The translations under genes were made by a program, and so were the position numbers. Source: Oscillospiraceae bacterium (GTDB lineage Bacteria; Bacillota; Clostridia; Oscillospirales; Oscillospiraceae). From it: 64,000 nucleotides of DNA. Where the stretch lies: contig CACYXE010000014.1 of the NCBI GenBank assembly GCA_902778275.1, positions 38,150 through 102,149 on the forward strand. Reading direction: 5' to 3'. Shown here piece after piece: positions 2 through 14,749 of this stretch (the first letter of the stretch is position 1; every line of letters starts with the position of its first letter). The notes under the pieces are model-generated. The model was not told the origin of the DNA, did not search any database, and saw nothing but the letters and a program-made list of their open reading frames with translations.

Positions 2-814
2 TCGGAGGCGAAGGATCAGGGGATCGTGACCGTGACGATCAACGACACCCGGATCTCGGCGGAGCAGATCGCGGACCGGATCAAAAACATCTACAAGATC
101 AGCGACATCAGCATCGTCCCCGACGGGGAGAACGACGGCGTCACCAATGCGAAGGTGGCGGAGGTGGCCTTCAATCAGTACTTCAGCCGGGCCAATGACG
201 GCAAGCGCGTCGGGATCGGCTGGGGGCTGATGATCGGCAAGATGGCAGATTACGCAAGCACCCTGGAGAACGCCAATCGCGCAAACGGCGTGATCTTCCC
301 GCTGGCCGGAGGGATCAACTCCATGACCCGCGACTATCACCTCAACGAGCTTGTGCGGATTTTCTCCCTGAAGACCGGACGGGCCCCGTATCTGCTCTAT
401 GCGCCGGCCTTGCATGACAACCCCATAGAGTATGCGATCGCGAAAAAGACGGAGGCCTATATCAGTATAAAGGAAGAATGGGAGTATATGGAGCAGGCGC
501 TGGTGGCCATCTCCAACTTCCCCTCCTACCCGGACCTGGCCGTCAAGTCTTTGTACGGAAACGCCCTGACGGAGAAAAAGGCCGTTGGCTGGATGCTGGC
601 TCACTACTTCGATTCTTACGGGCGGATCATATCTCCCGCGGCGGAAGCGACGCTGCAGGCCTCCGTCAAACAGCTGAAAACCACCGACGTGACAGCCGTG
701 TGCTCCAACCAGGTAAAGCCCCAGGCTGTGATCGGCGCCCTGCGTACCGGGATCATCGACCGGCTCATCATCCCCCTCGGCCTGGCCGAAAAGGTGTCCA
801 CCAACGTGTTTTAA
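2..814 (+). CDS. SorC/LsrR-type transcriptional regulator, effector-binding domain (5' truncated)
   Basis: The reading frame is open to the left edge, so the N-terminal helix-turn-helix (about 50-60 residues in this family) lies outside the window. The visible 270 residues match the SorC sugar-binding domain: an 'ISIVPDGEND' strand, then 'KRVGIGWGLMIGKMA' in the position of the family's phosphate-sugar-binding Gly-rich loop, and a C-terminal 'TGIIDRLII' segment. Proteins of this family (SorC, LsrR, DeoR of Bacillus, CggR) bind phosphorylated sugars and usually repress an adjacent catabolic operon. It lies directly upstream of the dhaL-dhaK-lsrF-ABC genes, with dyad sites over its stop codon and before dhaL, so it is the likely local regulator. 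Family is sure; ligand is unknown. Confidence 0.85.
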   Translation, partial: SEAKDQGIVTVTINDTRISAEQIADRIKNIYKISDISIVPDGENDGVTNAKVAEVAFNQYFSRANDGKRVGIGWGLMIGKMADYASTLENANRANGVIFPLAGGINSMTRDYHLNELVRIFSLKTGRAPYLLYAPALHDNPIEYAIAKKTEAYISIKEEWEYMEQALVAISNFPSYPDLAVKSLYGNALTEKKAVGWMLAHYFDSYGRIISPAAEATLQASVKQLKTTDVTAVCSNQVKPQAVIGALRTGIIDRLIIPLGLAEKVSTNVF

Positions 815-824
815 CATCTGTTAA
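811..824. promoter_or_regulatory. Candidate operator 1 (perfect dyad TTAACA-N2-TGTTAA)
   Basis: TTAACATCTGTTAA is a perfect inverted repeat overlapping the stop codon of the SorC-type regulator. The same core recurs at 973-984 on the other side of the dha promoter. Two matching dyads bracketing a promoter beside a regulator gene suggest the regulator's binding sites; assignment to that protein is inference. Confidence 0.5.
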
Positions 825-831
825 ATTTTGT

Positions 832-883
832 GACATTATTGCCTAAAGACCGGAAATCGGATTTGGCAATAATGTCTTTTTTT
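832..883 (+). terminator. Intrinsic terminator of the regulator gene
   Basis: Perfect 12-bp stem GACATTATTGCC / GGCAATAATGTC (832-843 with 865-876), followed by seven T residues at 877-883. It separates the regulator from the dha promoter. Confidence 0.85.
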
Positions 884-904
884 GCGAATAACGCACAAAT
901 TTAC

Positions 905-933
905 TTGACGCGCCTCTGAGAAAGTAGTAATAA
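905..933 (+). promoter_or_regulatory. Sigma-A type promoter for the dhaL-dhaK-ABC operon
   Basis: TTGACG at 905-910, a 17-bp spacer, and an imperfect TAATAA at 928-933. Candidate operator 2 lies 40 bp downstream, where a bound repressor would block transcription. The -10 box is weak. Confidence 0.45.
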
Positions 934-972
934 TTTATTGTGTAAATGATGGAATGGCATCGGCACAAAAGC

Positions 973-984
973 TAACATTTGTTA
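973..984. promoter_or_regulatory. Candidate operator 2 (dyad TAACA-N2-TGTTA)
   Basis: TAACATTTGTTA repeats the core of the 811-824 dyad and lies in the 5' leader just before the dhaL ribosome-binding site. Likely second site for the adjacent SorC-type regulator. Confidence 0.5.
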
Positions 985-1011
985 AAATTTAGCAAGAAGA
1001 AGGATGATCTT

Positions 1012-1623
1012 ATGATTTCAAAAGAAGAGCTGAAAAACAGGATCGTAAGCGCCTGTGAAAACGTGATCGCGGCCGAGGCGGAACTGACGGAGATCGACTC
1101 CAAGTTCGGCGACGCCGACCACGGCCTGACGATGCACAAGATCGGCGCCACGATCAAGGCCTCGGTCAGCGAGGCGGACGGCAACATCAAGGAGATGCTG
1201 GATGACGCCGCCATGGCGGTCATGGGCCTCAACGGCGGCAGCGCCGTTCCCCTGTGGAACACCTGGCTGGACGGCATGCAGGAAGGCGCCCCCGAGGCGG
1301 ACGAGATCGACGTGAAGGGTCTGCAGGCCATGTTCGCTTCGGCTTTTGAGGAACTGGACGATATGTCCGGGGCCAAGGTGGGCGACAAGACCATGATGGA
1401 CGCCTGCATCCCCGCTTCCCAGGCCATCGCCGATTATGCCGGCGACAGCGAGGCTGAGCTGTTCGACCTGGCGGCCAAGGCAGCCCTGCAGGGCGCGGAG
1501 GACAGCAAGAACTACACCTCCAAATTCGGCCGGGCCAAGAGCTACGGCGCCAAGACCATCGGCACCCCGGACGCGGGCGCGGTCTCCATGTCCAAGTTCT
1601 TTGAGGGCCTTGCCAAGGCATAA
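1012..1623 (+). CDS. dhaL: DhaL: nucleotide-binding subunit of a dihydroxyacetone-type kinase
   Basis: The start at 1012 is chosen because AGAAGAAGG precedes it at normal spacing; an in-frame TTG at 979 has no such site. The 203-residue protein has the DhaL Mg-nucleotide motif around residues 29-38 (D29, D34, D36 in 'FGDADHG'), equivalent to the three Asp ligands of E. coli DhaL, and a Gly-rich nucleotide loop ('GLNGGSAVP'). In the known system DhaL donates phosphate to the ketose held covalently on DhaK. No DhaM-like PTS protein is encoded nearby, so either ATP is used directly or DhaM is elsewhere. Gene order dhaL-dhaK is the reverse of E. coli. Confidence 0.9.
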   Translation: MISKEELKNRIVSACENVIAAEAELTEIDSKFGDADHGLTMHKIGATIKASVSEADGNIKEMLDDAAMAVMGLNGGSAVPLWNTWLDGMQEGAPEADEIDVKGLQAMFASAFEELDDMSGAKVGDKTMMDACIPASQAIADYAGDSEAELFDLAAKAALQGAEDSKNYTSKFGRAKSYGAKTIGTPDAGAVSMSKFFEGLAKA

Positions 1624-1688
1624 CGCAACCTTGCGTTCATACAAAACAATATAGAAGCAAAGGTGCGAATCTCTGCGTAAATCGCGCC

Positions 1689-1728
1689 GCAAGGGGGTAC
1701 CCCCTTGCACCTTTTCTGACGAAAAGGT
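1689..1728. repeat. Two adjacent perfect hairpins in the dhaL-dhaK gap
   Basis: A 20-bp perfect palindrome (arms GCAAGGGGGT / ACCCCCTTGC, 1689-1708) is followed at once by ACCTTTTC-tgac-GAAAAGGT (1709-1728). There is no T-run, so this is more likely an mRNA-processing or stability element, or a dispersed palindromic repeat, than a terminator. Confidence 0.55.
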
Positions 1729-1799
1729 GATAAACCGTTCCCAACAAGAAGTTCAAACAGAAGCCCAACAACAAAAATTTTGAGAGGAGAACAGACAAG

Positions 1800-2798
1800 A
1801 TGAAAATGAAGAAATTCATGAACAACCCCGAAACCCTGACCGACGAGCTGCTCGTTGGCATGGGCCTGGCGTACAGCGACGTCGTTGAAGTCGACGGCCA
1901 TCTGGTCATCAGCAAGGACCTGGCCAACGCGGACCGCGTCACCGTCGTCACCTATGGCGGCTCCGGCCATGAGCCCGCCGTGCAGGGCTTCACCGGCAGA
2001 GGCATGCTGGATATCGTCGCCGTCGGCGACATCTTCGCCGCGCCCTCCGGCCAGCTGGTCTTTGAGGCCATGCAGCGGGCGGACAAGGGCCACGGCGTCC
2101 TGCTTCTCACCCTGAACTATGCCGGCGACCAGCTGGCTGGCAAGCAGGCCATGAAGCTGGCCAAGAAGGCCGGTATGAACGTGCGTCAGGTCGTCACCGA
2201 CGAAGAGATCCGCTTCGATCCCAACGGCGAGGACAACCGCCGCGGTCTGGGCGGCGCCGCTGCCCTGTACCACATCGCCGGCGCTGCGTGCGCGGCCGGC
2301 AAGTCCCTGGACGAGGTCGCCGACATCTGCGAGCGCTATGCCCGCAACATGGCTTCCATCGCGGTCCAGGTCGCCTGCGCCACCCATCCCCAGAACGGCA
2401 TGTCCTTCGGCGATCTGGCTGAGAGCGACATGATGGAGATCGGCGCCGGTCAGCACGGCGAAGGCGGCGGCGTCCGCGTTCCCATGATGAGCGCGAAGGA
2501 CACCATCGCGACGGTCGCCAAGCCCATCGCCGAGCATCTGGGCCTGAAGGCCGGCGACAAGGCCTTCGTCATGATCAACGGCAGCGGCTCCACCACCCTG
2601 ATGGAGATGTACATCCTCTTCAAGGAAGCGGTTGCTTACCTGGAGAACATGGGCGTGAAGGTCGTCGGCAGCATGGTCGGCGAGATCCTGACCGTTCAGG
2701 AGGCCGGCGGCTTCCAGCTGAACATGGCCAAGTGGGATGACGAGATCGAGGCGCTGTGGAATACGCCCGCTCACGCCACTGTCTTCTTCAAAGAGTAA
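1800..2798 (+). CDS. dhaK: DhaK: substrate-binding subunit of a dihydroxyacetone-type kinase
   Basis: The 332-residue protein has the whole DhaK catalytic set: H57 in 'GGSGHEP', D110 in 'NYAGD', and H219 in 'GAGQHGEGGG'. These correspond to E. coli H56, D109 and H218; the last forms the covalent hemiaminal with the substrate ketone. DhaK enzymes phosphorylate the terminal hydroxyl of dihydroxyacetone, erythrulose and similar 1-hydroxy-2-ketones. AGAGGAG precedes the ATG. The operon context (LsrF-type aldolase, Lsr-type importer) suggests the natural substrate is larger than dihydroxyacetone, perhaps a four- or five-carbon ketose or the AI-2 precursor; that is inference. Confidence 0.93.
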   Translation: MKMKKFMNNPETLTDELLVGMGLAYSDVVEVDGHLVISKDLANADRVTVVTYGGSGHEPAVQGFTGRGMLDIVAVGDIFAAPSGQLVFEAMQRADKGHGVLLLTLNYAGDQLAGKQAMKLAKKAGMNVRQVVTDEEIRFDPNGEDNRRGLGGAAALYHIAGAACAAGKSLDEVADICERYARNMASIAVQVACATHPQNGMSFGDLAESDMMEIGAGQHGEGGGVRVPMMSAKDTIATVAKPIAEHLGLKAGDKAFVMINGSGSTTLMEMYILFKEAVAYLENMGVKVVGSMVGEILTVQEAGGFQLNMAKWDDEIEALWNTPAHATVFFKE

Positions 2799-2816
2799 TA
2801 GGAGGAATAACAAAAC

Positions 2817-3695
2817 ATGGCAGACGCTGTCGGAAATATCAACGCACACGATTATCATCTGGATGTTCCCCCTGCCGACACCGGCTTTTTCGTGAAAGGC
2901 TTGGGCAACACCGATTGGGGCATGAAGAACCGCCTGTCCCGGATCTTCGATCCCAAGTCCGGAAACACCGTTATGCTGGCTTTCGACCATGGGTACTTCA
3001 TGGGAGCCACCGCAGGCCTGGAGCGTATGGACGTGACCATCGCCCCGCTGTGCGAGTACGCTGACGTGCTGATGGCCACCAGAGGCGCCATCAGAAGCTG
3101 CATCCCGCCCACGGCCAACAAGGCCACCTGCCTGAGAGCCACCCACGACACTTCCGTCCTGTTCGACGATCTGAGCACCGGCTCCGGCCTGGCGCTGGAC
3201 TTCGAGGACGCCATCCGTATGAACGCCTCCGCCCTGGCGATCCAGTGCTTCATCGGCGGCAAGGGCGAGGCTGCTTCTCTGGAGGCTCTGTGCAGAGCGG
3301 CGGATCAGGGTTACAAGTTCGGCATCCCCGTCCTGGGCGTCACCGCCGTGGGCAAGGAGATGGCCCGCACCAACCAGTACTTCACCCTGGCGACCCGTAT
3401 CCTCGCGGAGCTTGGCGCAAACTTCGTCAAGACCTACTACTGCGAGAACTTCGAGACCGTCGTGGCGGCCTGCCCGGTCCCCATCGTCATTGCCGGCGGC
3501 AAGAAGCTGCCCGAGAACGAGGCCCTGGAAATGGCCTACAAGGCCATCCAGAGCGGCGCGCACGGCGTCGACATGGGCAGAAACGTGTTCCAGAGCGAGC
3601 ATCCCGTTGAAATGCTCAAGTCCATCCGCAAGGTCGTGCACGAGGGCTTCACCGGAAAAGAAGCGTTCGAGTTCTACACGGACGCGATCAACTGA
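2817..3695 (+). CDS. lsrF: LsrF-type class I aldolase/thiolase
   Basis: The 292-residue protein resembles E. coli LsrF over its full length, with shared blocks 'GNTDWGMKNRLSRIF', 'VMLAFDHGYF', 'PVPIVIAGGKKLPE' and 'GVDMGRN'. The Schiff-base lysine is present as K205 in 'FVKTYYCE' (K203 in LsrF). LsrF transfers an acetyl group from 3-hydroxy-5-phosphonooxypentane-2,4-dione to CoA in AI-2 breakdown; relatives in the DeoC/FbaB superfamily are true aldolases. It starts 18 bases after dhaK behind TAGGAGGA, so it is co-translated with the kinase. The family call is strong; the exact substrate depends on the pathway and is not proven. Confidence 0.85.
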   Translation: MADAVGNINAHDYHLDVPPADTGFFVKGLGNTDWGMKNRLSRIFDPKSGNTVMLAFDHGYFMGATAGLERMDVTIAPLCEYADVLMATRGAIRSCIPPTANKATCLRATHDTSVLFDDLSTGSGLALDFEDAIRMNASALAIQCFIGGKGEAASLEALCRAADQGYKFGIPVLGVTAVGKEMARTNQYFTLATRILAELGANFVKTYYCENFETVVAACPVPIVIAGGKKLPENEALEMAYKAIQSGAHGVDMGRNVFQSEHPVEMLKSIRKVVHEGFTGKEAFEFYTDAIN

Positions 3696-3719
3696 TTGTA
3701 AAGAAAGGGGTAAAAAAAC

Positions 3720-4058
3720 ATGGCAGCCGAATACATGCATGTGGGAATTCCCGTACTGAACAAAAAGCCCAATATGGTCTACAACGACTGGGGCAAGTTC
3801 TGGGTCAATGAGAGCGTTGACGCGTATGACTTCAAGATCGAGTACCTGAAATTCGACGAGGGGACCATCTTCCCCGAGATCCTGTCCAAGCAGCCCCATG
3901 TGGCCTACAACGTAGACAACATCGAGTTCTATGCCGAGCAGGCCCAGCAGGTCATCTTCGGGCCCGCGCATGTCAACAACGACCCCAACATCCGTCTTGC
4001 TTTCGTCATTTGGGACGATGCCATCATCGAGCTCTACGAGGATAAGACCAACGGCTGA
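3720..4058 (+). CDS. Small VOC-like protein of the lsr-like operon
   Basis: 112 residues behind AAAGGGG. I do not recognise a characterised family member. The N-terminal 'HVGIPV' strand, the central 'HVAYNVDNIEFY' and the C-terminal 'IIELYE' resemble the metal-ligand strands of one glyoxalase/VOC half-module (His and Glu ligands), suggesting a small dimeric isomerase, lyase or epimerase. It sits between the LsrF-type aldolase and the importer, where the phospho-DPD isomerase LsrG would be needed in an AI-2 pathway, so it may isomerise the phosphorylated intermediate. The fold assignment is tentative and the role is inference. Confidence 0.55.
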   Translation: MAAEYMHVGIPVLNKKPNMVYNDWGKFWVNESVDAYDFKIEYLKFDEGTIFPEILSKQPHVAYNVDNIEFYAEQAQQVIFGPAHVNNDPNIRLAFVIWDDAIIELYEDKTNG

Positions 4059-4132
4059 TTCACTGTGCTTTAACAACTTGTCCAAAGAGGAAGGATAAGT
4101 TTTAAAGAAAAAAGAAATTAAGGAGGAACCCA

Positions 4133-5257
4133 ATGAAAAAGGTACTAGCAATCATCCTGGCGCTGGTCATGGTATTCGCACTTGCTGCGTGTGGCCAGCA
4201 GGCTGCTTCCGGCGGAAGCAACCAGAGCGTTTCCCAGCAGGGCAGCGCTGGATCCCCCAAGCAGGACATCGCTGATGCCACCGCGGCTGAGCCCGCCGGC
4301 GAGCTGAAGCACGTCAAGATGGGTCTGTCCATGCAGAGCCTCCAGGCTGCGGCTTTCCACGCCTGGGCTGACTACCTCCAGTATCGTCTGGACTACGAAG
4401 CCTCCCAGCGCGGCTACGAGGTGGAGCTCGTCACCCTCAACGCTGATAACGACGTGACCAAGCAGGCCACCGATATCCGCGACCTGATCGCACAGGGCTG
4501 CGAAGTCATCTTCTGCCCCTGCCTTGACTCTCAGGCCATCCTGTCCTCTGTCAAGGAAGTGCATGACGCTGGCCTCATCTACGTCTCCTACTGCCGTGAG
4601 GTTTCTCACGATGCAGTCGGCGATGAGATCCCCGATCTGACCGTCAACTTCGCTTCCGAGGATCAGGCCTACTATGGCATGGTGGACCTGTTCGAGATCA
4701 TGAAGGCCGACGGCGTTGAGCCCGTGAAGATCATCGACTGCTACGGCGACAAGACCGACGAGAACGCCCACAACCGTGAGCGCGGCCTCCAGAAGGCGAT
4801 CAAGGAATACGGCTTTGAGAACGTTCCCATTGTTGAGGCCGAGTGCGGCCACTGGGAGCCCGACGTCTGCGGCCAGAACCTGGCGCCTGTCCTCGCTGCC
4901 AACCCCGATGCCAACTGCATGTATTCTTCCTCTGACTTCCTGAGCAGCGGCATCCAGAAGGCTATGGAAGATGCCGGCATGTGGCACAAGCACGGCGAGG
5001 AAGGCCACGTGTACTTCTCCGCTTCCGACCTGTATCCTCTCGGCATCCAGCATCTGCGTGAGGGCTACATGGACACCGGTGTTGACCAGGGCTGCTACAA
5101 CTTCGCCGTGGCCGCTGCTGCCGGCGCCTTTGATCTGCTCGAGGGCAAGGAAGTTGAGCCGGTGCAGCTGGTTCTCGGTACCCGCGCCACCTATGCTGAC
5201 ATCGAAGAGATCCTGGCCACCATTCCTCTGTGGGGCAACGACTACGCTGACTATTAA
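4133..5257 (+). CDS. Sugar ABC transporter substrate-binding lipoprotein (LsrB/RbsB class)
   Basis: A lipoprotein signal peptide with lipobox 'LAAC' (Cys at residue 20), then a Ser/Gln-rich linker, then a periplasmic-binding-protein type I fold: 'VKMGLSMQSLQAAAFHAWAD', 'TDIRDLIAQGCEVIFCPC', and 'NPDANCMYSSSD'. AAGGAGG lies ahead of the ATG. It is followed by a hairpin and then the membrane components, the usual arrangement for over-expressing the binding protein. It should capture the sugar that the DhaK/LsrF enzymes degrade. Type I folds of this class bind pentoses, hexoses, inositol, erythritol or AI-2; I cannot read the ligand from the sequence. Confidence 0.9.
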   Translation: MKKVLAIILALVMVFALAACGQQAASGGSNQSVSQQGSAGSPKQDIADATAAEPAGELKHVKMGLSMQSLQAAAFHAWADYLQYRLDYEASQRGYEVELVTLNADNDVTKQATDIRDLIAQGCEVIFCPCLDSQAILSSVKEVHDAGLIYVSYCREVSHDAVGDEIPDLTVNFASEDQAYYGMVDLFEIMKADGVEPVKIIDCYGDKTDENAHNRERGLQKAIKEYGFENVPIVEAECGHWEPDVCGQNLAPVLAANPDANCMYSSSDFLSSGIQKAMEDAGMWHKHGEEGHVYFSASDLYPLGIQHLREGYMDTGVDQGCYNFAVAAAAGAFDLLEGKEVEPVQLVLGTRATYADIEEILATIPLWGNDYADY

Positions 5258-5304
5258 TCCAGTCGGCGCTCTTCGAACCGCTATCAACACTTAGCATTTT
5301 CCTG

Positions 5305-5331
5305 GGGGGCGAGGCTAACTGCCTCGCCCCC
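5305..5331 (+). terminator. Intercistronic hairpin between binding protein and permease
   Basis: 11-bp perfect stem GGGGGCGAGGC / GCCTCGCCCCC with a 5-base loop, and a T/C-rich stretch further downstream (5340-5355). Probably an attenuator or 3'-end stabiliser that raises binding-protein mRNA over permease mRNA. Confidence 0.65.
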
Positions 5332-5392
5332 GATCCTGATTTTTCTTTTTTCTTTCAGACTTACTCAGCTTCCAAGAATGGAGGGAACACGA

Positions 5393-6349
5393 TTGTCAGA
5401 GAAACTAAAACGCTTCGGAAGCAACAATAAAACGCTATTGATCATGCTCGGCGTCATCGCCGTCGTGTTTATCATACTTTCGTTGGCGGTTCCTAATTTT
5501 GCCACCGTTCGCAATCTTACCAACCTTTTGCAGATGATCGCCCCCATCGCCGTTATGGCCTGCGGCGCGACCTATGTGCTGGTCATTGGCGGTATGGACA
5601 TTTCCAACCCCGCTGTCATGGCGGCCTCCGCCGTGGTAGGCGTGTATTACATGACCACGATGGGCGGCAACCTGGTCGTCGGCACCTTCGTCATCATTCT
5701 GAGTGCGGCCTTTCTCGGTCTCATCAACGGCTTTGCCATCGCGAAGCTGAAGATGGTCCCGATGGTGGTGACCCTGTCCATGATGACGATCGGCACGGGC
5801 CTTGCCACGTTCCTCAGCGGTGTGCGTGGCCTTCCCCGCCTGCCGGATTCTTTCTCGATCTTTTTCAACAAGACGGCCGTCATCATCATCCTTCTGCTCG
5901 TCATGCTGGTTATGGATTTTATTCTGACCCGCACGAAATTCGGCAGAAAGCTCTATTACATCGGCAACAATGCCAGGACCACCAAGGTCTCCGGTATCGA
6001 CAGTGAGAACATCATCATGCTCACCTATGTGATCAGCGGTATCTGCGCCGGCATCGCGGGTGTCATCAACACTGCGTCCATCGGCACCGCCAGAGCGAAC
6101 ATGGGCCCCCAGTCCCAGATCCTGGACATCATCAGTGCGGCCGTCATCGGCGGCGTCTCCACCAGCGGCGGAAGCGGCAGAGTCCGGGATGCCGTTCTCG
6201 GCGCATTCCTGGTCTGCGGTCTGACCAACGTGATGAATCTGCTCAACGTGTCGGACTATTATACGACGCTGATCAAGGGTGCTATCATTATCGGCGCCAT
6301 GGGCATCGCCTCCTTCCGGCAGCAGCAGGCCGCAAAGAAAGGGGTGTAA
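5393..6349 (+). CDS. ABC sugar transporter permease (RbsC/LsrC class), first copy
   Basis: I place the start at TTG 5393, 7 bases after GGAGGG; the in-frame ATG at 5378 overlaps that ribosome-binding site and has none of its own. The product (318 residues) is highly hydrophobic with about eight to ten membrane segments, and has the family's 'GGMDISNPAVMAASAV' and 'ATTKVSGI'-like cytoplasmic EAA-type loop ('GNNARTTKVSGIDSENI'). It forms half of the membrane channel with the permease at 7869. Four bases separate it from the ATPase gene. Confidence 0.9.
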   Translation: MSEKLKRFGSNNKTLLIMLGVIAVVFIILSLAVPNFATVRNLTNLLQMIAPIAVMACGATYVLVIGGMDISNPAVMAASAVVGVYYMTTMGGNLVVGTFVIILSAAFLGLINGFAIAKLKMVPMVVTLSMMTIGTGLATFLSGVRGLPRLPDSFSIFFNKTAVIIILLLVMLVMDFILTRTKFGRKLYYIGNNARTTKVSGIDSENIIMLTYVISGICAGIAGVINTASIGTARANMGPQSQILDIISAAVIGGVSTSGGSGRVRDAVLGAFLVCGLTNVMNLLNVSDYYTTLIKGAIIIGAMGIASFRQQQAAKKGV

Positions 6350-6352
6350 GGG

Positions 6353-7888
6353 ATGGACAACAATCTTTCTCTGGAGCTGAGACACATCAGCAAAACATTC
6401 CCGGGCGTAAAGGCCCTGAACGATGTTTCGTTCTCTGCGCAGCCCGGCAAGGTGTGCGGCATCGTGGGCGTCAACGGCGCCGGCAAGTCCACCCTGATGA
6501 ACATCCTCGGCGGCATCCATCAGCCGGACGAGGGCGGCGAGATCATCATCAACGGCAAAAAGGTCGTGATCGCAGATCCCAAGGCCTCCACGGACCTGGG
6601 CATCGCCTTTATCCAGCAGGAGGTCCAGGCCTTCGACACGATGAATGTGTATGAAAATGTCCTGGCTGCCGACTTGAACAAGTGGCGAAAGAAGAAGGGT
6701 CTCGGCCTTGACTTCAAGGCCATGAAGAAGGAAGCGCAGATCTATCTGGACACGCTGGACAGCCGCATTGATGTCGATGCGCCGGTATACACCCTCACCG
6801 TCGGCGACAAGCAGATCATCCAGATCGCCCGCGCACTGTGCCAGGGCGGCCGGATCCTGCTGTTTGACGAGCCCACATCCTCCCTCTCCGACCATGAGGT
6901 CGCCATGCTGTTCCAGGTGATCCACAGACTGCGGGAGCAGGGCTATATCATCTTCTATATCTCCCACTTCCTGGATGAGATTTTCGAGTTGTGCGACAAT
7001 GTGGTGGTCCTGCGTGACGGCCAGGTGGTCGGCCAGGCGGAGATCGGAGACATCAACAAAGAGCAGCTGGTCGAGATGATGCTGGGCTACCAGGTCGAGG
7101 GCCGTGTCCACAACCGTGAAGGCGCTCTGAATGATGTGATCTTCAAGGCGGAGCACATCTCCGGCGAAAAGCTGCCGAGAGATTTCAGCTTTACGCTCAA
7201 CAAGGGCGAGATCCTGGGCGTCTGGGGCCTGCTGGGTTCGGGCAGAAGCGAGCTGTTCAACACCATCCTGGGTATCGACAAGATGATGGACGGCAGGCTT
7301 TACTTCAAGCAGGACGGCGAACTCAAAGAAGTCACCCAGAAGGATCTCTACAAGCATGTCGGTTATCTGACCGAGGGCAGACACTATGACGGCCTGTTCC
7401 TGAATATGCCCATCTGCCAGAACATCACCAGTTCCAACCTGAATCAGTTTTCGGCAAAAGGGACCGGTATCCTGAACACCGCCAAGGAGCATGTGGAATC
7501 CCGCAAGCTGATCGAGCAGGTGGGCGTCAAGACCCCGGATGAGAACGTGAAGGTCTCCAAGCTCTCCGGCGGCAACCAGCAGAAGGTCATCATTGCCAAA
7601 TGGTTCCTGAAGGATCCGGAGATCCTGTTCATGGACGAGCCCACCAAGGGCGTGGACGTGGGCGCCAAAAACGACATCAAGGAATTGATCTTTGAGAAGG
7701 CCGAGAAGGGCACCTCCTTTGTGGTCATCTCGTCCGAGTTGGAAGAGATCATGAGCCTGTGCGACAGGATCATCGTGATCTATGAGGGCAGACTGGTGGG
7801 CGAGGTCGCGAAAGCGGACTTTTCCAAGGAGAGCCTGATGAAGGGCATTGTCAGTCAGGAGGAGAAAAATGCAGAAAAAGAAATTTGA
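6353..7888 (+). CDS. Tandem-domain sugar ABC transporter ATPase (RbsA/LsrA class)
   Basis: 511 residues with two ABC domains. Domain 1 has Walker A 'GVNGAGKST' (residues 39-47) and Walker B 'ILLFDEPTS'. Domain 2 has the degenerate P-loop 'GLLGSGRSE' usual for the second half of RbsA/MglA proteins, a canonical 'LSGGNQQK' signature and 'LFMDEPTKG'. It powers import by the two flanking permeases. One ATPase flanked by two different permeases is the lsrACD/xylose-like layout rather than the single-permease rbs layout. The 3' end overlaps the next gene by 20 bases, implying coupled translation. Confidence 0.93.
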   Translation: MDNNLSLELRHISKTFPGVKALNDVSFSAQPGKVCGIVGVNGAGKSTLMNILGGIHQPDEGGEIIINGKKVVIADPKASTDLGIAFIQQEVQAFDTMNVYENVLAADLNKWRKKKGLGLDFKAMKKEAQIYLDTLDSRIDVDAPVYTLTVGDKQIIQIARALCQGGRILLFDEPTSSLSDHEVAMLFQVIHRLREQGYIIFYISHFLDEIFELCDNVVVLRDGQVVGQAEIGDINKEQLVEMMLGYQVEGRVHNREGALNDVIFKAEHISGEKLPRDFSFTLNKGEILGVWGLLGSGRSELFNTILGIDKMMDGRLYFKQDGELKEVTQKDLYKHVGYLTEGRHYDGLFLNMPICQNITSSNLNQFSAKGTGILNTAKEHVESRKLIEQVGVKTPDENVKVSKLSGGNQQKVIIAKWFLKDPEILFMDEPTKGVDVGAKNDIKELIFEKAEKGTSFVVISSELEEIMSLCDRIIVIYEGRLVGEVAKADFSKESLMKGIVSQEEKNAEKEI

Positions 7889-8837
7889 TGTTTTTAGCTT
7901 ATCTTCCTACCTGGTGCTGCTGGCCATTTTGATCGTCTTTGGCATCACCGGGAACAACTTCCTGACCCTGAAAAGCATTTATGCCACGATCAACAACGGC
8001 ACGCCTCTGATCCTGATCACCTGTGCCGTCACCTTCAGCCTCCTGGTGGGGATCATCGACCTGTCCTGCGCTGCCATCGGTTACGCGGCAGGCGTCTCCT
8101 CCGGTATGCTGATGCACTGGTACGGCGTGCCCTTCGCCGTGGCCCTTCTTGTGGGCATCGCCATCGGCGTGTTCCTGGGCTGGATCAACTCCCTGCTGAT
8201 CGTCAAGCTCAAGATGAACGGCATGCTGGTCACCTTCGGTATGATGCTGGTCCTGCGTGCCTACGGGCGCATCATCACAAACGACAACACCATTACCTTG
8301 GGCGACCATGTAAAAGCGATCCGTCAGGCGCGTATCGCTGCGCTGGGCGGTCTGCAGGTCACGGTCATCGTGGTGATTGTATTCGCGGTGATCCTTCACC
8401 TGGTGCTGAAGTATACCGCCTTCGGGCGCAGGCTGCTGCTGGTCGGCTGCGACGAGAACGTGGCCAAGAGGATCGGCATCAATTCCGACAAGGTCAAGAC
8501 CCAGGCCCTTCTGCTGGAAGGCCTGCTCTGCGGCATCGCCGGCTCCTTCTTCTGGATCGTCGTCGAGAACGCGATCGTGACCACCGGCCTGAACAGCTAT
8601 GAGTTCCTGGCCATTGCGGGCGCCTGCCTTGGCGGCATCAGCCTGCTGGGCGGCCGCGGCAGCATCTTCCCGGGCGCGGTGATCGGTTCGCTGATCCTTC
8701 TGTTTTTGGCGGCCGGTATGGCAAACGCGGGCATCTCCATTTTTGTCACGCCTTTCGTCCGCGGCGTCATCATCTTCATAGCCATGTACATCGACTCTCT
8801 GCGCACCAGAAGAATGATGGGCAACAAGCTGGGATAA
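7869..8837 (+). CDS. ABC sugar transporter permease (RbsC/LsrD class), second copy
   Basis: Start at ATG 7869, behind AGGAGGAG and inside the 3' end of the ATPase gene; an upstream in-frame TTG at 7848 has no better site. The 322-residue product is a multi-spanning permease with 'GIIDLSCAAIGYAAG' and the cytoplasmic 'CDENVAKRIGINSDKVK' loop that contacts the ATPase. It is clearly divergent from the permease at 5393, so the pair would form a heterodimeric channel as LsrC/LsrD do. Last gene of the operon; a strong terminator follows. Confidence 0.9.
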   Translation: MQKKKFDVFSLSSYLVLLAILIVFGITGNNFLTLKSIYATINNGTPLILITCAVTFSLLVGIIDLSCAAIGYAAGVSSGMLMHWYGVPFAVALLVGIAIGVFLGWINSLLIVKLKMNGMLVTFGMMLVLRAYGRIITNDNTITLGDHVKAIRQARIAALGGLQVTVIVVIVFAVILHLVLKYTAFGRRLLLVGCDENVAKRIGINSDKVKTQALLLEGLLCGIAGSFFWIVVENAIVTTGLNSYEFLAIAGACLGGISLLGGRGSIFPGAVIGSLILLFLAAGMANAGISIFVTPFVRGVIIFIAMYIDSLRTRRMMGNKLG

Positions 8838-8851
8838 ACAAACATAAACAG

Positions 8852-8892
8852 AAAGATGATACAGGTCTGCGCGGCCTGTATCATCTTTTTTT
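8852..8892 (+). terminator. Intrinsic terminator of the lsr-like operon
   Basis: Stem AGATGATACAGG / CCTGTATCATCT closed by a short GC-rich loop and followed by seven T residues. It isolates the operon from the amidase gene. Confidence 0.9.
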
Positions 8893-8927: not shown

Positions 8928-9872
8928 ATGCAGCTTGTGAAGCGAGATCAGGTATACAACACTTTGGATAAAGCCCACGCGCCCGCCGCCACGGTCAAAT
9001 CCGGGGAGACCGTCCGGATCCAGACCCAGCTGCAGAGCGGCACATGGCTCAATTCCATCGAGGACCGCTGGGGACCCTCAAAGAGCAAGGGCCCGAACCT
9101 CTGCACGGTCGTAGGCGTTGAGGGCGCCATGCCGGGCGACACGCTGGTGGTGGAGATCCTGGACGTGGTCCCGGAAAAGCTGGGCTACACCGGCTTTGCG
9201 GGCTGGCGGACGCCGCTGGTGGGGCAGATCCTGCCCGAGGGGAAGGATTGGGGGACCGTGACCCATACGGTGGAGATCACGAAAGAGGGCATCCTGTGGA
9301 GCCCGGCGCTCACCATCCCCCTCAAGCCCATGATCGGGACCATCGGCACCGCCCCCGCAGGCGAGGCCCAGACCAACAAATATGCCTACCGCAACGGCGG
9401 CAACATGGATGTGCAGGAGATCTGCGCCGGGGCGACCTTATATCTGCCGGTGGAGGTGGAGGGCGCCCTGCTGCATGTGGGCGACTGCCACGCCATCATG
9501 GGCGACGGGGAGATCCCCCACGGCGGCGCCATTGAGTGCGCGGCGGAGGTCACATTGAAGCTCAGCCTTCGCAAGGGCTACGCGGCAAAAGAGTGGCTCC
9601 GGGCGGAGAATGACGAATACCTCATGACCATCGCCAACGAGATCCGGATGAAGGATTCCTTCTGCGGCGCGGTGCGGGAGCTGATCCGCTGGATGTGTGA
9701 GGACTACGGCTTTACCGCGCAGGAGGCCTATCTGCTGCTGGGTCAGGTGCTGGAGGCGCGGTGTACCATGCTCCACGGCGACGATTGCCCCTTCAGCCCC
9801 TATGTTGCGAAGATCCCCAAAAAGTATCTGAAACCGGATAAAGATTTTGACTGGAGCGGCCCGGCGGAATGA
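8928..9872 (+). CDS. Acetamidase/formamidase family amidohydrolase
   Basis: The ATG at 8928 is chosen for the AGGAGG just upstream; an in-frame ATG at 8898 precedes that site. The 314-residue product has the FmdA/AmdA hallmarks: 'GWRTPLVGQILPEG', 'PMIGTIGTAPAG', 'NGGNMDVQEICAGATLYLPV' and 'HVGDCHAIMGDGEI', the last carrying the likely metal ligands. These cytosolic enzymes hydrolyse short amides such as formamide or acetamide to ammonia and the acid. It is separated by a terminator from the upstream ABC operon. If it makes formate, the formate-tetrahydrofolate ligase 1.6 kb downstream could use it; that link is inference. Confidence 0.85.
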   Translation: MQLVKRDQVYNTLDKAHAPAATVKSGETVRIQTQLQSGTWLNSIEDRWGPSKSKGPNLCTVVGVEGAMPGDTLVVEILDVVPEKLGYTGFAGWRTPLVGQILPEGKDWGTVTHTVEITKEGILWSPALTIPLKPMIGTIGTAPAGEAQTNKYAYRNGGNMDVQEICAGATLYLPVEVEGALLHVGDCHAIMGDGEIPHGGAIECAAEVTLKLSLRKGYAAKEWLRAENDEYLMTIANEIRMKDSFCGAVRELIRWMCEDYGFTAQEAYLLLGQVLEARCTMLHGDDCPFSPYVAKIPKKYLKPDKDFDWSGPAE

Positions 9873-9897
9873 CGGGGCGCAAGCAAAAATACGAGCA

Positions 9898-9925
9898 GCC
9901 GGACTGCGGATAAACGCAGTCCGGC
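9898..9925. terminator. Hairpin between convergent genes
   Basis: 11-bp perfect stem GCCGGACTGCG / CGCAGTCCGGC with a 6-base loop, between the amidase (+) and the small membrane gene (-). It probably stops transcription from both sides, although the T-rich tract is weak. Confidence 0.6.
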
Positions 9926-9965
9926 GGCCTTGTGTCTTTTATGGGAAGGTCTCGAAGCGGGCGCC

Positions 9966-10268
9966 TTATGCCGCCGCGCTTTCGCGCAGGCGGTCCAGTC
10001 TCCGGTTGCGGAAGTACAGCACGATATCGATGGAAACCATGGCGATGTCGGCAAAGTAGAACCAGATGGAGTAGGCCCAGACGCCGGTGCGGCTGTAGGT
10101 GATCAGCTTGCCCAGCACGCCCACCAGGTAGCCGAATACGACGATGAATTCAAAGGTGACGCTCTTGCCCTTCGCTGTGCGGGAGCGCAGGGATTTGGAG
10201 ATGTTGAAGGGCCAGGAGAAGCCGAAGGCGATCAGCATCCCGATCTCACAAAGCTGTACGATATCCAT
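9966..10268 (-). CDS. Small PQ-loop-like membrane protein
   Basis: 100 residues with three predicted membrane segments (about residues 3-20, 38-57 and 65-86) and a basic C-terminus. The first loop, 'FSWPFNISKSLRSRTAKGKS', resembles the PQ-loop/SemiSWEET motif (Pro in helix 1, then a KSxxSxT basic loop), so it may be a half-transporter that dimerises. AGAAAGGA precedes the ATG and a good minus-strand promoter lies at 10346-10374. No partner gene is evident. Function unknown. Confidence 0.7.
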   Translation of the reverse strand: MDIVQLCEIGMLIAFGFSWPFNISKSLRSRTAKGKSVTFEFIVVFGYLVGVLGKLITYSRTGVWAYSIWFYFADIAMVSIDIVLYFRNRRLDRLRESAAA

Positions 10269-10345
10269 AAGACTGGGTCCTTTCTGCGGGCTGCAGCTGA
10301 AAACGGGGCTTTCTTCTGCAGCCGTTTTTCCTGTATGCGGAGCAC

Positions 10346-10374
10346 AGTATACCGCAAGGAGCGGCGCTTGTCAA
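10346..10374 (-). promoter_or_regulatory. Sigma-A promoter of the small membrane gene
   Basis: On the minus strand, TTGACA (10374-10369), a 17-bp spacer, and TATACT (10351-10346). Confidence 0.65.
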
Positions 10375-10467
10375 TTTTGTCCGCTGTCCGGATCGATTTG
10401 TTCTTTTCACGGAGATTGAATCTTGCGCAGGACAGGTTAAAATGTTAAAATCCACGAAGGAATGGTA

Positions 10468-10496
10468 TTTACGGATGAGAAGAAATATCGTATGAT
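10468..10496 (+). promoter_or_regulatory. Promoter of panB
   Basis: TTTACG (10468-10473), 17-bp spacer, TATGAT (10491-10496), ending 42 bp before the panB start. Confidence 0.5.
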
Positions 10497-10537
10497 AGAA
10501 CAAAAGCCGAAAGCGCAGAACGAAAAGGAGAAACATC

Positions 10538-11374
10538 ATGGCTAAGAAAAAAATGACAGTTCCGGATTTCAGGAAGTACAAAGAAGAAGGCCGCAAATTT
10601 GCCTATGCCACAGCCTATGATTACACGACCGCTTCTATTGTCAATGAGAGTGAAGTTGAAATCATCCTGGTGGGCGATTCCCTGGGCATGATCATGCTGG
10701 GCTATGACACCACGGTCGGCGTCACACTGGATGATATGATCCATCACATCCGCCCGGTGGTCAAAGGGGCTCCGGACTCCTTCATTGTGGGCGATATGCC
10801 CTTCGGCTCCTATCAGGAGAGCCCGGAACAGGCGATCCGCAGCGCCTGCAGGATTTTGGCCGAGACCAATTGTGACTGTGTCAAGCTGGAAGGCGGCGTG
10901 GAGATGGCCGAGACGATCCGCCGCATGACCAAAGTGGGGATTCCTGTCATGGGGCATATCGGCCTTACGCCCCAGTCCGCCGCCTCCTTCGGCGGGTTCC
11001 GGATGCAGGGCGGTACGCCCGAGACAGCGAAAAAGCTGATTCAGGATGCCAGGGCCATTGAAGCGGCAGGCGCGTTTTCCATTGTGTTGGAATGTGTGCC
11101 CAGCGTGGTGGGCAAGGCCGTGGCGGAAGCTGTGAGCATCCCCATCCTCGGGATCGGTGCGGGGCCGGATGTGGATTGCCAGGTGCTGCTGACGCACGAC
11201 ATGCTGGACATGTACGGCGGGCACAAGGCCAAGTTTGTCAAGACCTTCGCGCATATTCGTGAGGAGATGGTCAAGGGCCTGAACCAATTCCATGCGGAGA
11301 CGATTTCCGGCGCCTTCCCCACCCCGGAATACAGCTACAACCGGCAGGTGGAGATCCCGCCGCTGGATGACTGA
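10538..11374 (+). CDS. panB: 3-methyl-2-oxobutanoate hydroxymethyltransferase
   Basis: 278 residues, the normal PanB length, with 'LVGDSLGMIMLGYDTT' (Mg-binding Asp), 'VGDMPFGSY', 'VKLEGG' and 'VMGHIGLTPQS'. It transfers a hydroxymethyl group from 5,10-methylene-tetrahydrofolate to 2-oxoisovalerate, the first step to pantothenate and CoA. AAAAGGAG precedes the ATG. panC and panD are not in the window. It is followed at 75 bp by fhs-fchA-folD, which make the methylene-folate it consumes, so the neighbourhood is functionally coherent. Confidence 0.95.
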   Translation: MAKKKMTVPDFRKYKEEGRKFAYATAYDYTTASIVNESEVEIILVGDSLGMIMLGYDTTVGVTLDDMIHHIRPVVKGAPDSFIVGDMPFGSYQESPEQAIRSACRILAETNCDCVKLEGGVEMAETIRRMTKVGIPVMGHIGLTPQSAASFGGFRMQGGTPETAKKLIQDARAIEAAGAFSIVLECVPSVVGKAVAEAVSIPILGIGAGPDVDCQVLLTHDMLDMYGGHKAKFVKTFAHIREEMVKGLNQFHAETISGAFPTPEYSYNRQVEIPPLDD

Positions 11375-11448
11375 GCGGCACGATCGCCGCAGCGGCGCGG
11401 GAAAGAGAAGAACGGGCGCTTATATAGAACCATTTCAGGAGGAGAATC

Positions 11449-13119
11449 ATGGGCTTCAAATCTGACATTGAAATTGCGCAGGAGGCAAAGCTGCTTCCCA
11501 TCAATGACATTGCCGCCTCCCTGGGCATCCCCGAGGACGCGGTGGAGAACTACGGCCGCTACAAGGCCAAGCTGGATATCCATGCTCTGAAGGAGCTGCC
11601 CGAGAAGGGCAAGCTGATCCTGGTCACCGCCATCACGCCGACTCCGGCCGGCGAGGGAAAAACCACGACCTCTGTGGGCCTCACCGACGGCCTTCGGAAG
11701 ATCGGCAAGAACGCCGTGGTCGCCCTGCGGGAGCCTTCCCTGGGACCTGTGTTCGGCGTCAAGGGCGGCGCTGCCGGCGGCGGCTATGCCCAGGTGGTGC
11801 CCATGGAGGACATCAACCTCCACTTCACCGGGGACTTTCACGCCATCGGCGCTGCCAACAATCTGCTGGCAGCGATGCTGGACAACCACATCCAGCAGGG
11901 CAACAGCCTGGGCATCGACCCCAAAGCCATCACCTGGAAGCGGGCCGTGGACATGAACGACCGGCAGCTGCGCCACATCGTGGACGGCCTGGGCGGAAAG
12001 GTGCAGGGCGTCCCTCGCGAGGACGGCTTTGAGATCACGGTCGCCTCCGAGATCATGGCCGTGCTGTGTCTGGCCGCCGACCTGAAGGATCTGAAGGAAC
12101 GCCTGGCCCGGATCATCGTGGCCTACACCTACGACGGCAAGCCTGTCACCGCGGCCGATCTGAAGGCCCAGGGCGCCATGGCGGCCCTGTTGAAGGACGC
12201 CATCAAGCCCAATCTGGTGCAGACTCTGGAGGGCACTCCCGCCTTCATCCACGGCGGACCCTTCGCCAACATCGCCCACGGCTGCAACTCCGTCACCGCC
12301 ACCCGCACAGCTTTGAAGCTGGCGGACTATGTGGTCACCGAGGCGGGCTTCGCCGCCGACCTGGGCGCGGAGAAGTTTGTGGACATCAAGTGCCGCATGG
12401 CAGGCCTCCATCCCTCCGCGGTTGTCATCGTGGCCACGGTGCGCGCCCTCAAGTACCACGGCGGCGTGCCCAAGGCGGAGCTGAACAACGAGAATCTGGA
12501 GGCGCTGGAAAAGGGGCTGCCCAACCTGCTGCAGCATGTTGGCAATGTGAAGAATGTGTTCGGCCTGCCCTGTGTGGTGGCCATCAACGCCTTCCCCACG
12601 GACACCGAGGCGGAGCTCCGGCTGGTGGAAAAGCGCTGCAATGAGCTGGGCGTGAACGTGGCCCTCTCGGAGGTCTGGGCCAAGGGCGGCGAGGGCGGCA
12701 AGGCCCTGGCCGGGGAAGTGGTGAAGCTCTGCGAGCAGCCCAACGACTTCTCCTTCACCTACCCCCTGGATATGTCCATCGAGGACAAGCTGGAGACCAT
12801 CTGCAAACGCATTTACCATGCCGACGGCGTGGCGCTGACGCCCAATGCCAAAAAGCAGGCCCAGCAGCTGACGGAGCTGGGCTTCGCGGGCATGCCCATC
12901 TGCATGGCCAAGACCCAGTACTCCTTCTCCGACGACGCCGGCCTGCTGGGCGCGCCCTCGGGCTTCACCGTCACGGTGCGGAATTTGAAGGTCGCCGCCG
13001 GCGCGGGCTTCATCGTGGCCTTGACCGGCGATATCATGACCATGCCCGGCCTGCCCAGGGTGCCCGCCGCCGAGAAGATCGACGTGGACGAAAACGGGAA
13101 GATCACAGGCCTGTTCTGA
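11449..13119 (+). CDS. fhs: Formate-tetrahydrofolate ligase
   Basis: 556 residues, standard for the bacterial monofunctional enzyme. The ATP-binding P-loop '[14 protein letters not shown]' and the '[24 protein letters not shown]' region (shown in part) are typical, as is the C-terminal '[16 protein letters not shown]'. It joins formate to tetrahydrofolate using ATP, giving 10-formyl-folate for purines or the methyl branch of the Wood-Ljungdahl route. CAGGAGGAG precedes the ATG. fchA and folD follow directly, completing formate to methylene-folate. No THF riboswitch is visible in the 75-base leader. Confidence 0.97.
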
Positions 13120-13173
13120 AGAGCGACCCGATCCCCTCACCGCCGCGCCTTGCGGCTGCCGAAAGGAGCAAAT

Positions 13174-13812
13174 ATGAGCGAGAAATGGATGCTGCACAGC
13201 TGCGCCGATTTTGTGGAAAAGCTGGCCTCCAAAGACCCGGTGCCCGGCGGCGGCGGGGCGGCGGCCCTGATGGGCGCTCTGGGGGCGGCCCTGTGTGAGA
13301 TGGCGGGCAACCTGACCGTGGGGAAAAAGAAATACGCGGCCTATGAGGACGATCTGCGCCGGATGATCACCGAGGCGGACGATCTGCGCCGGCGGCTGCT
13401 GGAGCTGATCGACGAGGACGCCCGGGCCTTTGCGCCCCTGTCCAAGGCCTACTCCCTCCCCAAGGACAGCCCGGATTACGAGGACACCCTGCGTCTTGTC
13501 ACCATCAACGCCTGCAAGGCGCCCTACGAGATGATGGAGAGCTGCGCCAAGGCCGTCGCCCTGCTGGAAGAGATGCAGGAAAAATGCAGCGCGCTGCTGC
13601 TCTCCGACGTGGGCTGCGGCGCCATCGCCGCGAAAGCCGCCCTGGAAGCGGCGGCCATGAATGTGTTTATCAACACCCGTTCTCTTCCCGGCAACGGCGA
13701 GGCCCTTCTGCTGGAGCGGAAGGCGGAGGCCCTGCTCAGCGAGTATATGCCCCGGGCCCGGAAAATCGCGGACTCGGTGATGGAAAGTCTGCGGAGGAAG
13801 AACAATGGCTGA
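13174..13812 (+). CDS. fchA: Methenyl-tetrahydrofolate cyclohydrolase (FchA type)
   Basis: Start ATG 13174 behind GAAAGGAG; a TTG at 13150 is less likely. The 212-residue protein belongs to the FTCD_C/FchA family: 'KDPVPGGGGAAALMGALG' near residue 20, 'MAGNLTVGKKKY', and a helical C-terminal half. It interconverts 5,10-methenyl- and 10-formyl-tetrahydrofolate. It sits between fhs and folD, with its stop overlapping the folD start. The next gene lacks key cyclohydrolase residues, so FchA is probably the only cyclohydrolase of this pathway here. Confidence 0.9.
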   Translation: MSEKWMLHSCADFVEKLASKDPVPGGGGAAALMGALGAALCEMAGNLTVGKKKYAAYEDDLRRMITEADDLRRRLLELIDEDARAFAPLSKAYSLPKDSPDYEDTLRLVTINACKAPYEMMESCAKAVALLEEMQEKCSALLLSDVGCGAIAAKAALEAAAMNVFINTRSLPGNGEALLLERKAEALLSEYMPRARKIADSVMESLRRKNNG

Positions 13813-14662: not shown

Positions 14663-14681
14663 ACGCCGCAGCACAGACCAA

Positions 14682-14730
14682 AAATCTCCCGTACCGCGAC
14701 CCTTTTCGGTCACGGTACGGGAGATTTTTT
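14682..14730 (+). terminator. Terminator of the panB-fhs-fchA-folD cluster
   Basis: Long stem AAATCTCCCGTACCG / CGGTACGGGAGATTT around a 17-base loop, followed by a T-run ending at 14730. Confidence 0.9.
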
Positions 14731-14749
14731 ATGGAGCGCTTGCGGCGGC

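Follow-up and report, generated by a model that had tools for sequence, protein, structure and literature searches.

Which compound is degraded by an operon that encodes the thiolase LsrF next to a kinase of the dihydroxyacetone type, and in what order would its enzymes act? The question is raised by a locus at the start of a 64,000-nt stretch of DNA (the window) from an Oscillospiraceae bacterium (assembly GCA_902778275.1, contig CACYXE010000014.1, positions 38,150-102,149 of the forward strand), whose genome assembly spans 2.38 Mb and is 84% complete. Nine genes, all on the + strand, follow in the order sorC-dhaL-dhaK-lsrF-VOC-SBP-permease-ATPase-permease, where VOC stands for a small protein assigned to the vicinal oxygen chelate fold and SBP for a substrate-binding lipoprotein. 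With a probability of about 0.5, we read the locus as a SorC-regulated catabolic operon with the core DhaL, DhaK, LsrF and VOC protein, representing a branch of the degradation of autoinducer-2 (AI-2; 4,5-dihydroxy-2,3-pentanedione, DPD) in which the kinase has been swapped. The computed basis of this reading is the gene content, its recurrence, its exclusivity with LsrK and LsrB, the active site of LsrF, the residues of DhaK, the fold of the VOC model and a locally confined palindrome. On this reading, the locus is a variant of the known Lsr-type degradation. A full-text literature search found no publication on DhaKL paired with LsrF, which is weak evidence of absence, as most subscription papers were outside its reach.

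Gene content of the locus

The genes assigned to the operon are listed with the family or model evidence for each.

1-814, + strand: SorC/LsrR-type transcriptional regulator, C-terminal part (Pfam Sugar-bind PF04198, 1e-25)
1012-1623, + strand: DhaL-type (Dak2) nucleotide-binding kinase subunit (Pfam Dak2, 2e-34)
1800-2798, + strand: DhaK-type (Dak1) substrate-binding kinase subunit (Pfam Dak1, 1.8e-81)
2817-3695, + strand: LsrF, class I aldolase-fold thiolase (NCBIfam PRK08227, 414.2 bits)
3720-4058, + strand: 112-aa protein of predicted VOC fold, proposed metal-dependent isomerase (AlphaFold2 (AF2) model and Foldseek)
4133-5257, + strand: substrate-binding lipoprotein of a CUT2-type ABC importer (Pfam Peripla_BP_4, 8e-28)
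5378-6349, + strand: ABC importer permease 1 (PF02653, 6e-34; AraH is the best NCBIfam match, below cut-off)
6353-7888, + strand: ABC importer tandem ATPase (PF00005, two stretches)
7869-8837, + strand: ABC importer permease 2 (PF02653, 5e-24; ATG at 7869 after AGGAGG)

The locus shares with the lsr operon of E. coli and Salmonella (lsrKR-ACDBFG) an LsrF that falls into one NCBIfam equivalog and has identical active-site residues, the combination of a SorC/LsrR-family regulator and a CUT2 ABC importer in one operon and, presumably, the logic of a kinase, an isomerase and a thiolase. It differs in that DhaKL takes the place of the FGGY kinase LsrK, and a VOC protein that of the ABM protein LsrG. 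The SBP is not LsrB, the regulator is only 23% identical to E. coli LsrR, and the first two steps of the pathway would be reversed. A sequence-only reading of the window had already named the SorC/LsrR-type regulator; the gene is present but cut by the window edge, and its complete form of 313 aa was recovered from the contig.

Linkage of DhaK, LsrF and the VOC protein

A scan of genome contigs yielded 555 stretches encoding LsrF relatives, and the best 80 of the 555 were scanned with the proteins of the window and of E. coli. Fourteen of these 80 loci encode DhaK, LsrF and the VOC protein together, 65 encode LsrK and/or LsrB, and the remaining locus (L009) begins at a contig end. To these were added module loci from the family (ten) and the class (four), a further eight canonical loci, and the loci of E. 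coli and the window. The resulting set comprises 104 rows, which fall into 29 of the Dha type (window included), 74 with LsrK and/or LsrB, one unplaced at the contig end and none with both. Counted in the 74 are L147 and L148, whose LsrF proteins are the same as those of L019 and L018, respectively (probably the same records), and L057, whose LsrF is the same as that of L051. The VOC protein is encoded in 29 of 29 Dha-type rows and in 0 of 74 canonical rows, also where the gene order differs. Because 28 further loci keep DhaK, LsrF and the VOC protein together, chance adjacency is excluded. At the level of whole genomes, 19 of 300 in the family encode LsrF at E <= 1e-70, 11 of them in the Dha-type context and eight with LsrK and LsrB, and none has both.

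The recurrence and the mutual exclusivity strongly support the earlier claim that a DhaKL-type kinase stands in the place of LsrK beside LsrF. The same reading had proposed a survey of genomes for a conserved dhaL-dhaK-lsrF-VOC order; the three proteins DhaK, LsrF and VOC do occur together in 29 loci, but their order is not frozen. In L155-L157, dhaL and dhaK are separated by the VOC gene, and the regulator follows the VOC gene in L048, L104 and L154; the flanking genes also vary among the ten module loci read. Named carriers include Oscillospiraceae, Lachnospiraceae and Phascolarctobacterium, and several are draft metagenome bins.

The locus had also been said to lack an FGGY kinase and LsrG. 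A Pfam and NCBIfam scan of the locus proteins found neither, so the statement holds as it was worded, but the absence of LsrG is nothing special: across the 74 canonical rows, a credible match to E. coli LsrG was found in E. coli alone, even at E <= 10, leaving 73 rows without one. We therefore dropped the absence of LsrG as a distinctive mark of the Dha type. Elsewhere in the window's own genome there are one ABM-domain protein and three relatives of LsrK at 25-28% identity; the LsrK proteins of the eight canonical loci of the family reach 48-50%. In the unplaced locus L009 (69-2213), genes for a class II aldolase and a UPF0047 protein at the contig start come before that of an LsrF belonging to the module clade (78% identical to the window's); DhaKL may lie beyond the contig end or be absent.

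The thiolase

By its sequence, the LsrF of the window is unambiguously a true member of the LsrF equivalog. It scores 414.2 bits against PRK08227, for which the cut-off is 297, and the next family reaches 174.4 bits, under its own cut-off. It is 54% identical to E. coli LsrF and matches the PDB entries 3gkf and 3glc at E 3e-100. K205, which had been named as the Schiff-base lysine from the sequence, aligns with the Schiff-base K203 of E. coli. PMC2728841 gives Lys203, Asp57 and Asp251 as site residues and H58, G226, G227, G253 and R254 as phosphate ligands. In an alignment of 28 Dha-type rows (including the window), 72 canonical rows (with E. coli twice) and L009, the positions Lys203, Asp57, His58, Tyr205, Gly226, Gly227, Asp251, Gly253 and Arg254 are invariant.

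Dha-type and canonical LsrF proteins are separated by five alignment columns, none of which is a catalytic or phosphate-binding residue, and E. coli LsrF carries the Dha-type letter at four of the five. In a tree of 100 LsrF proteins, from which that of L100 was omitted, the two genomic contexts require two changes in total; support for the deep split is weak (80/19), and E. coli forms a long branch. A single origin of the Dha-type context is compatible with this tree. The module lsrF of L100 (G204:C36, about 1707-2577) lies in two pieces in different frames of a draft assembly, which may be real or an assembly error.

The identity of the thiolase bears on a rival reading, which we consider improbable. 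The locus would encode a ketose pathway, in which DhaKL adds a phosphate to C1 of a tetrulose, pentulose or deoxyketose, an LsrF-like class I aldolase releases dihydroxyacetone phosphate (DHAP) and an aldehyde, and the VOC protein serves as a sugar epimerase or isomerase. DhaK-family kinases of erythrulose-type sugars are known, the SBP and the permeases resemble ribose/arabinose-type systems, and relatives of the VOC protein adjoin other sugar-type genes in two loci (L111 and L112). The aldolase, however, is LsrF proper by the scores above, and it is closely linked to DhaKL and the VOC protein. It also keeps D251, a position at which the other close homologues have alanine according to PMC2728841. 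The sequence-only reading had left the choice between an AI-2-like and a tetrulose/pentulose route; the second is made less likely, and the interpretation as a whole is partly supported.

The kinase

The module kinase resembles the dihydroxyacetone kinase DhaKL(M) in its two Dak1/Dak2 subunits, in the residues associated with the covalent histidine and in the metal-binding aspartates of DhaL. H57, D110 and H219 of DhaK, all noted earlier from the sequence together with the presence of DhaL, align with E. coli H56, D109 and H218 and are kept in 29 of 29 module DhaKs; D29, D34 and D36 are invariant across the 27 module DhaLs compared. The differences are equally consistent. Both subunits fall below the dihydroxyacetone kinase equivalogs (DhaK 244 bits against a TIGR02363 cut-off of 406.25, DhaL 101.8 bits against a TIGR02365 cut-off of 138.3), the partner gene is lsrF, and T79, S80 and K104 of E. 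coli DhaK are replaced by Ala, Ala and Leu in all 29 module DhaKs. Nine other DhaK-like proteins have K at the K104 position in six cases, G in two and A in one. If T79, S80 and K104 line the dihydroxyacetone pocket, as we presume, the loss of these polar residues would suit a bulkier, less polar end of the substrate. No DhaM was found in the window's own genome (84% complete), so that phosphorylation by the module DhaKL is likely, on sequence grounds, to depend on ATP and not on the phosphotransferase system.

An ordinary dihydroxyacetone kinase might have come to lie beside lsrF by chance, passing dihydroxyacetone to glycolysis while LsrF acts independently. All catalytic residues of dihydroxyacetone kinases are indeed present, but the linkage persists in 29 loci with varied flanks and orders, the scores are far under the cut-offs for both subunits, and T79, S80 and K104 are changed throughout; we regard this explanation as highly improbable. 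Among 398 genomes of the phylum, a search for DhaK at E <= 1e-60 returned that of the window and eight others with 36-39% identity, and no LsrF or VOC protein was found in the stretch fetched around each of the eight.

The gap between dhaL and dhaK (1624-1799) measures 176 bases in the window against about 54-70 in its close relatives L003-L005. It holds an 8-bp G+C-rich terminator-like hairpin at 1689-1708, possibly an attenuator between the kinase subunits.

The small VOC-fold protein

The 112-aa protein has no Pfam or NCBIfam family match at E <= 0.001. Thirteen members of its family searched against Pfam at E <= 1 gave chance matches only (best E 0.012), and a single-sequence search of the PDB returned nothing. 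A profile of the 13 members found glyoxalase I of C. acetobutylicum as its best match, at E about 1e-4 from two weak stretches, followed by an unrelated putative transferase at E 0.004. The AF2 model reaches a pLDDT of 91, with two of five models confident, and Foldseek matches it to methylmalonyl-CoA epimerase (6bu2) and glyoxalase I (2qh0 and 3hdp) at E 8.9e-5 to 4.3e-4. These matches are modest, with TM-scores by query length of 0.60-0.69 and root-mean-square deviations of 4-5 Å. As modelled, the protein has the VOC fold with paired beta-alpha-beta-beta-beta units, in agreement with the earlier description of a small VOC-like protein. All 13 sequences share H7, E41, H60 and E104. In the model, these residues fall on strands 4-11, 40-45, 60-64 and 101-108, the usual place of VOC metal ligands. 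The fold of the model, shared with glyoxalase I and methylmalonyl-CoA epimerase, and the placing of these putative ligands suggest a metal-dependent enediolate isomerase or epimerase. The protein differs from those isomerases in lying outside all Pfam and NCBIfam families and in having DhaK and LsrF as neighbours in the 29 Dha-type loci.

In L111 (G212:C4, 7449-11228), which has no LsrF, the gene for a divergent relative of the protein (33%) is flanked by those for an FGGY kinase (28% to LsrK) and a short-chain dehydrogenase, and a SorC/LsrR-type regulator is encoded close by. This locus possibly represents a sister pathway.

Proposed order of the reactions

DhaK places a histidine on the ketone of its substrate and directs phosphorylation to the neighbouring CH2OH, and hence needs a terminal hydroxymethyl ketone. 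The sequence-only reading had considered the 1-hydroxy-2-ketones bound by DhaK chemically close to DPD. DPD itself (CH3-CO-CO-CHOH-CH2OH) has no terminal hydroxymethyl ketone, which speaks against this link, but an isomer of DPD has one. According to PMC8016206, LsrG converts phospho-DPD to 3,4,4-trihydroxy-2-pentanone-5-phosphate, and LsrF moves the acetyl group to coenzyme A (CoA), releasing DHAP. Without its hydration and phosphate, the LsrG product is CH3-CO-CHOH-CO-CH2OH, which carries the terminal hydroxymethyl ketone. If the module uses DPD, isomerisation would come first, because the chemistry of DhaK fits the isomer and not DPD, and the VOC enzyme would then have its place ahead of the kinase.

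We infer every reaction, substrate, step order and importer role in the pathway that follows. A 1-deoxy-2,3-diulose, most likely DPD, would enter the cell, here perhaps through the CUT2 importer. The metal-dependent VOC enzyme would relocate the carbonyl by way of an enediolate, producing 3,5-dihydroxypentane-2,4-dione (CH3-CO-CHOH-CO-CH2OH). DhaK would hold the terminal hydroxymethyl ketone on H219 while DhaL with ATP phosphorylates the CH2OH, and LsrF with CoA would split the phosphorylated product into acetyl-CoA and DHAP. The sequence of steps would thus be to isomerise, phosphorylate and thiolyse, against phosphorylation (LsrK), isomerisation (LsrG) and thiolysis (LsrF) in E. coli, and phospho-DPD, the inducer of LsrR, would not form. 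It is somewhat short of even odds that AI-2 is dismantled isomerisation-first by an unnamed VOC enzyme acting on DPD, a re-tooled DhaKL and then LsrF, yielding acetyl-CoA and DHAP, and that some Bacillota accordingly eat AI-2 or an AI-2-like diketose without phospho-AI-2.

The importer and the identity of the substrate

We class the importer as a CUT2 system of general sugar type. NCBIfam ranks AraH/AraG/RbsA-type families over LsrC, LsrD and LsrA, all below cut-off; for the tandem ATPase, AraG is the top match and LsrA the ninth. BLAST gives no meaningful match between the SBP and LsrB. Alignment of the SBP by hhalign with the LsrB profile indicates a common family (probability 97%, 16% identity), and in this alignment K35 and D116 of LsrB, which we take to be ligand residues, are replaced by Ser and Cys. 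Four near-identical sequences did not yield a usable AF2 model of the SBP (pLDDT 45). The earlier likening of the importer to lsrACDB is therefore right as a list of components and wrong as a statement of likeness.

A membrane protein of the DUF1097 family is encoded between lsrF and the VOC gene in L011 (11053-11613) and L101 (about 9143-9703) and is a candidate substrate channel or carrier. The corresponding space in L010, L012 and L013 is about as large, and L013 shows the same protein start.

The substrate might instead be another compound of the form R-CO-CO-CHOH-CH2OH or R-CO-CHOH-CO-CH2OH, for example a Maillard/Amadori-type deoxy-diulose other than DPD. The chemistry would be unchanged (isomerisation, phosphorylation of the hydroxymethyl ketone, thiolysis to an acyl-CoA and DHAP) and only the R group would differ. 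The importer unlike LsrACDB and the SBP unlike LsrB both point this way, as do the 25 of 29 module loci with no good importer homologue nearby, the five LsrF columns that split the two classes and the general scarcity of LuxS. The core site of LsrF is unchanged, however, the five discriminating positions are not among the named catalytic or phosphate-binding residues, and E. coli LsrF has the Dha-type residue at four of them. We hold this alternative to be rather unlikely.

Several observations weigh against the reading of the locus as a branch of AI-2 degradation, for which we can only infer DPD as the natural substrate. Among the 29 Dha-type loci, the importer is present in the window and its three close relatives (L003-L005) only; the other 25 have no good importer homologue nearby on the module strand, three of them having a 22%-identical ATPase match, and many of the contigs are short. 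As the importer is not Lsr-like and a good homologue is lacking from these 25 loci, extracellular AI-2 is an uncertain source of the substrate. LuxS is encoded in the window's own genome; in all, two of the 11 Dha-type genomes, one of the eight canonical lsr genomes and 73 of the 300 family genomes overall encode it. With LuxS mostly absent, the carriers are mostly not makers of AI-2; they may consume the AI-2 of others, or another substrate. The recycling of a cell's own signal was rejected as a general role, given LuxS in only two of the 11 genomes.

The module is recurrent but uncommon and patchy, which weighs on the same side. The VOC protein is found in 14 of 300 family genomes and five of 391 class genomes, the window's own genome being counted each time, and in none of the five other genomes of the window's genus. 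The four other VOC-bearing class genomes all encode DhaK, DhaL and LsrF alongside. One genome of the genus (G174, locus L146) lacks the VOC module and carries a canonical lsrK/lsrB-type locus instead; the versions can thus differ between close relatives. Three of the 14 VOC-bearing family genomes have the protein without LsrF, in one case (L111) next to the FGGY kinase and the short-chain dehydrogenase, and the VOC family is therefore broader than the proposed pathway. Since canonical lsr loci of Bacillota also do without a recognisable LsrG, a separate isomerase gene need not sit in each such locus. An LsrK could be missed in the window's own genome at its level of completeness, and the assignment of T79, S80 and K104 to the dihydroxyacetone pocket is presumed.

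The regulator and predicted control sites

The complete regulator gene starts 128 bases before the window (13873-14814 of the contig stretch L002) and ends at position 814. A SorC homologue is encoded near lsrF in 24 of the 29 Dha-type loci. The following sites were predicted between sorC and dhaL.

811-824, no strand assigned: predicted operator 1, palindrome TTAACATCTGTTAA, overlapping the sorC stop codon
832-876, + strand: 12-bp inverted repeat (832-843 / 865-876) followed by a T run, probable sorC terminator
905-934, + strand: promoter-like site TTGACG-18-AATAAT upstream of dhaL, 10/12, consensus match only
973-984, no strand assigned: predicted operator 2, TAACATTTGTTA, 27 bases upstream of dhaL

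The palindrome TAACATNTGTTA has two matches in the window, at 812 and 973 in the sorC-dhaL gap, and none in 100 shuffles. The same two are its sole matches in the whole genome, where a reversed control pattern also has two; the genome count is thus unremarkable, and the placing of the matches is remarkable. The 14-bp pattern TTAACANNTGTTAA occurs once in the genome, at predicted operator 1. Thirty rows were examined for the relaxed form TAACANNTGTTA, which is present in the sorC-dhaL gap of eight (the window, L003, L004, L007, L011, L012, L013 and L101) and beyond this gap in L107 only, elsewhere in that locus. The arms of the probable terminator are intact in the aligned L003 and L004. Because the TAACATNTGTTA sites sit only in the sorC-dhaL gap, the SorC protein probably governs this operon and little else, tying together the kinase, the thiolase, the VOC protein and the importer.

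An open reading frame resembling metK (S-adenosylmethionine synthetase, named by reading the sequence) lies just upstream of sorC in L010 (2315-3529) and L013 (5871-7052). AI-2 derives from the S-adenosylmethionine cycle, yet this neighbourhood may be due to chance.

Flanking genes

The downstream neighbour of the operon is a gene of the acetamidase/formamidase family (8928-9872), which begins 90 bases past the stop codon of the last permease. It was left outside the unit because no tblastn match to its protein is listed in any of the 80 lsrF loci. Shared control of this gene is unsupported, as the operator-like palindrome is confined to the sorC-dhaL gap and the 80 loci show no listed match to the amidase. 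A long inverted repeat with a T run at about 8853-8890, between the last permease and the amidase gene, is probably the terminator of the operon. The amidase opens a run of genes (8928-14662) that continues with PanB-like, formate-tetrahydrofolate ligase-like and FolD-like open reading frames, these three named by reading the sequence. About 2.5-3.7 kb upstream of the window, L002 contains a tyrosine-recombinase-like open reading frame (10281-11497, likewise named from its sequence) preceded by genes for tRNA-Asp and tRNA-Thr, and the region may once have been an integration site.

Implications

The proposal would assign a function to a small VOC family outside Pfam and presents a case of non-orthologous replacement in which the swap of the kinase fold would force the reversal of two steps. 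Searches for AI-2 consumers usually rely on LsrB and on an lsr operon that is complete and includes LsrK; PMC2561040 is an example. If the operons described here consume AI-2, searches based on LsrB and LsrK miss a set of Bacillota that remove the signal without producing a phospho-signal. Some Bacillota would then use AI-2 as food, without the phospho-AI-2 that drives Lsr-type signalling.

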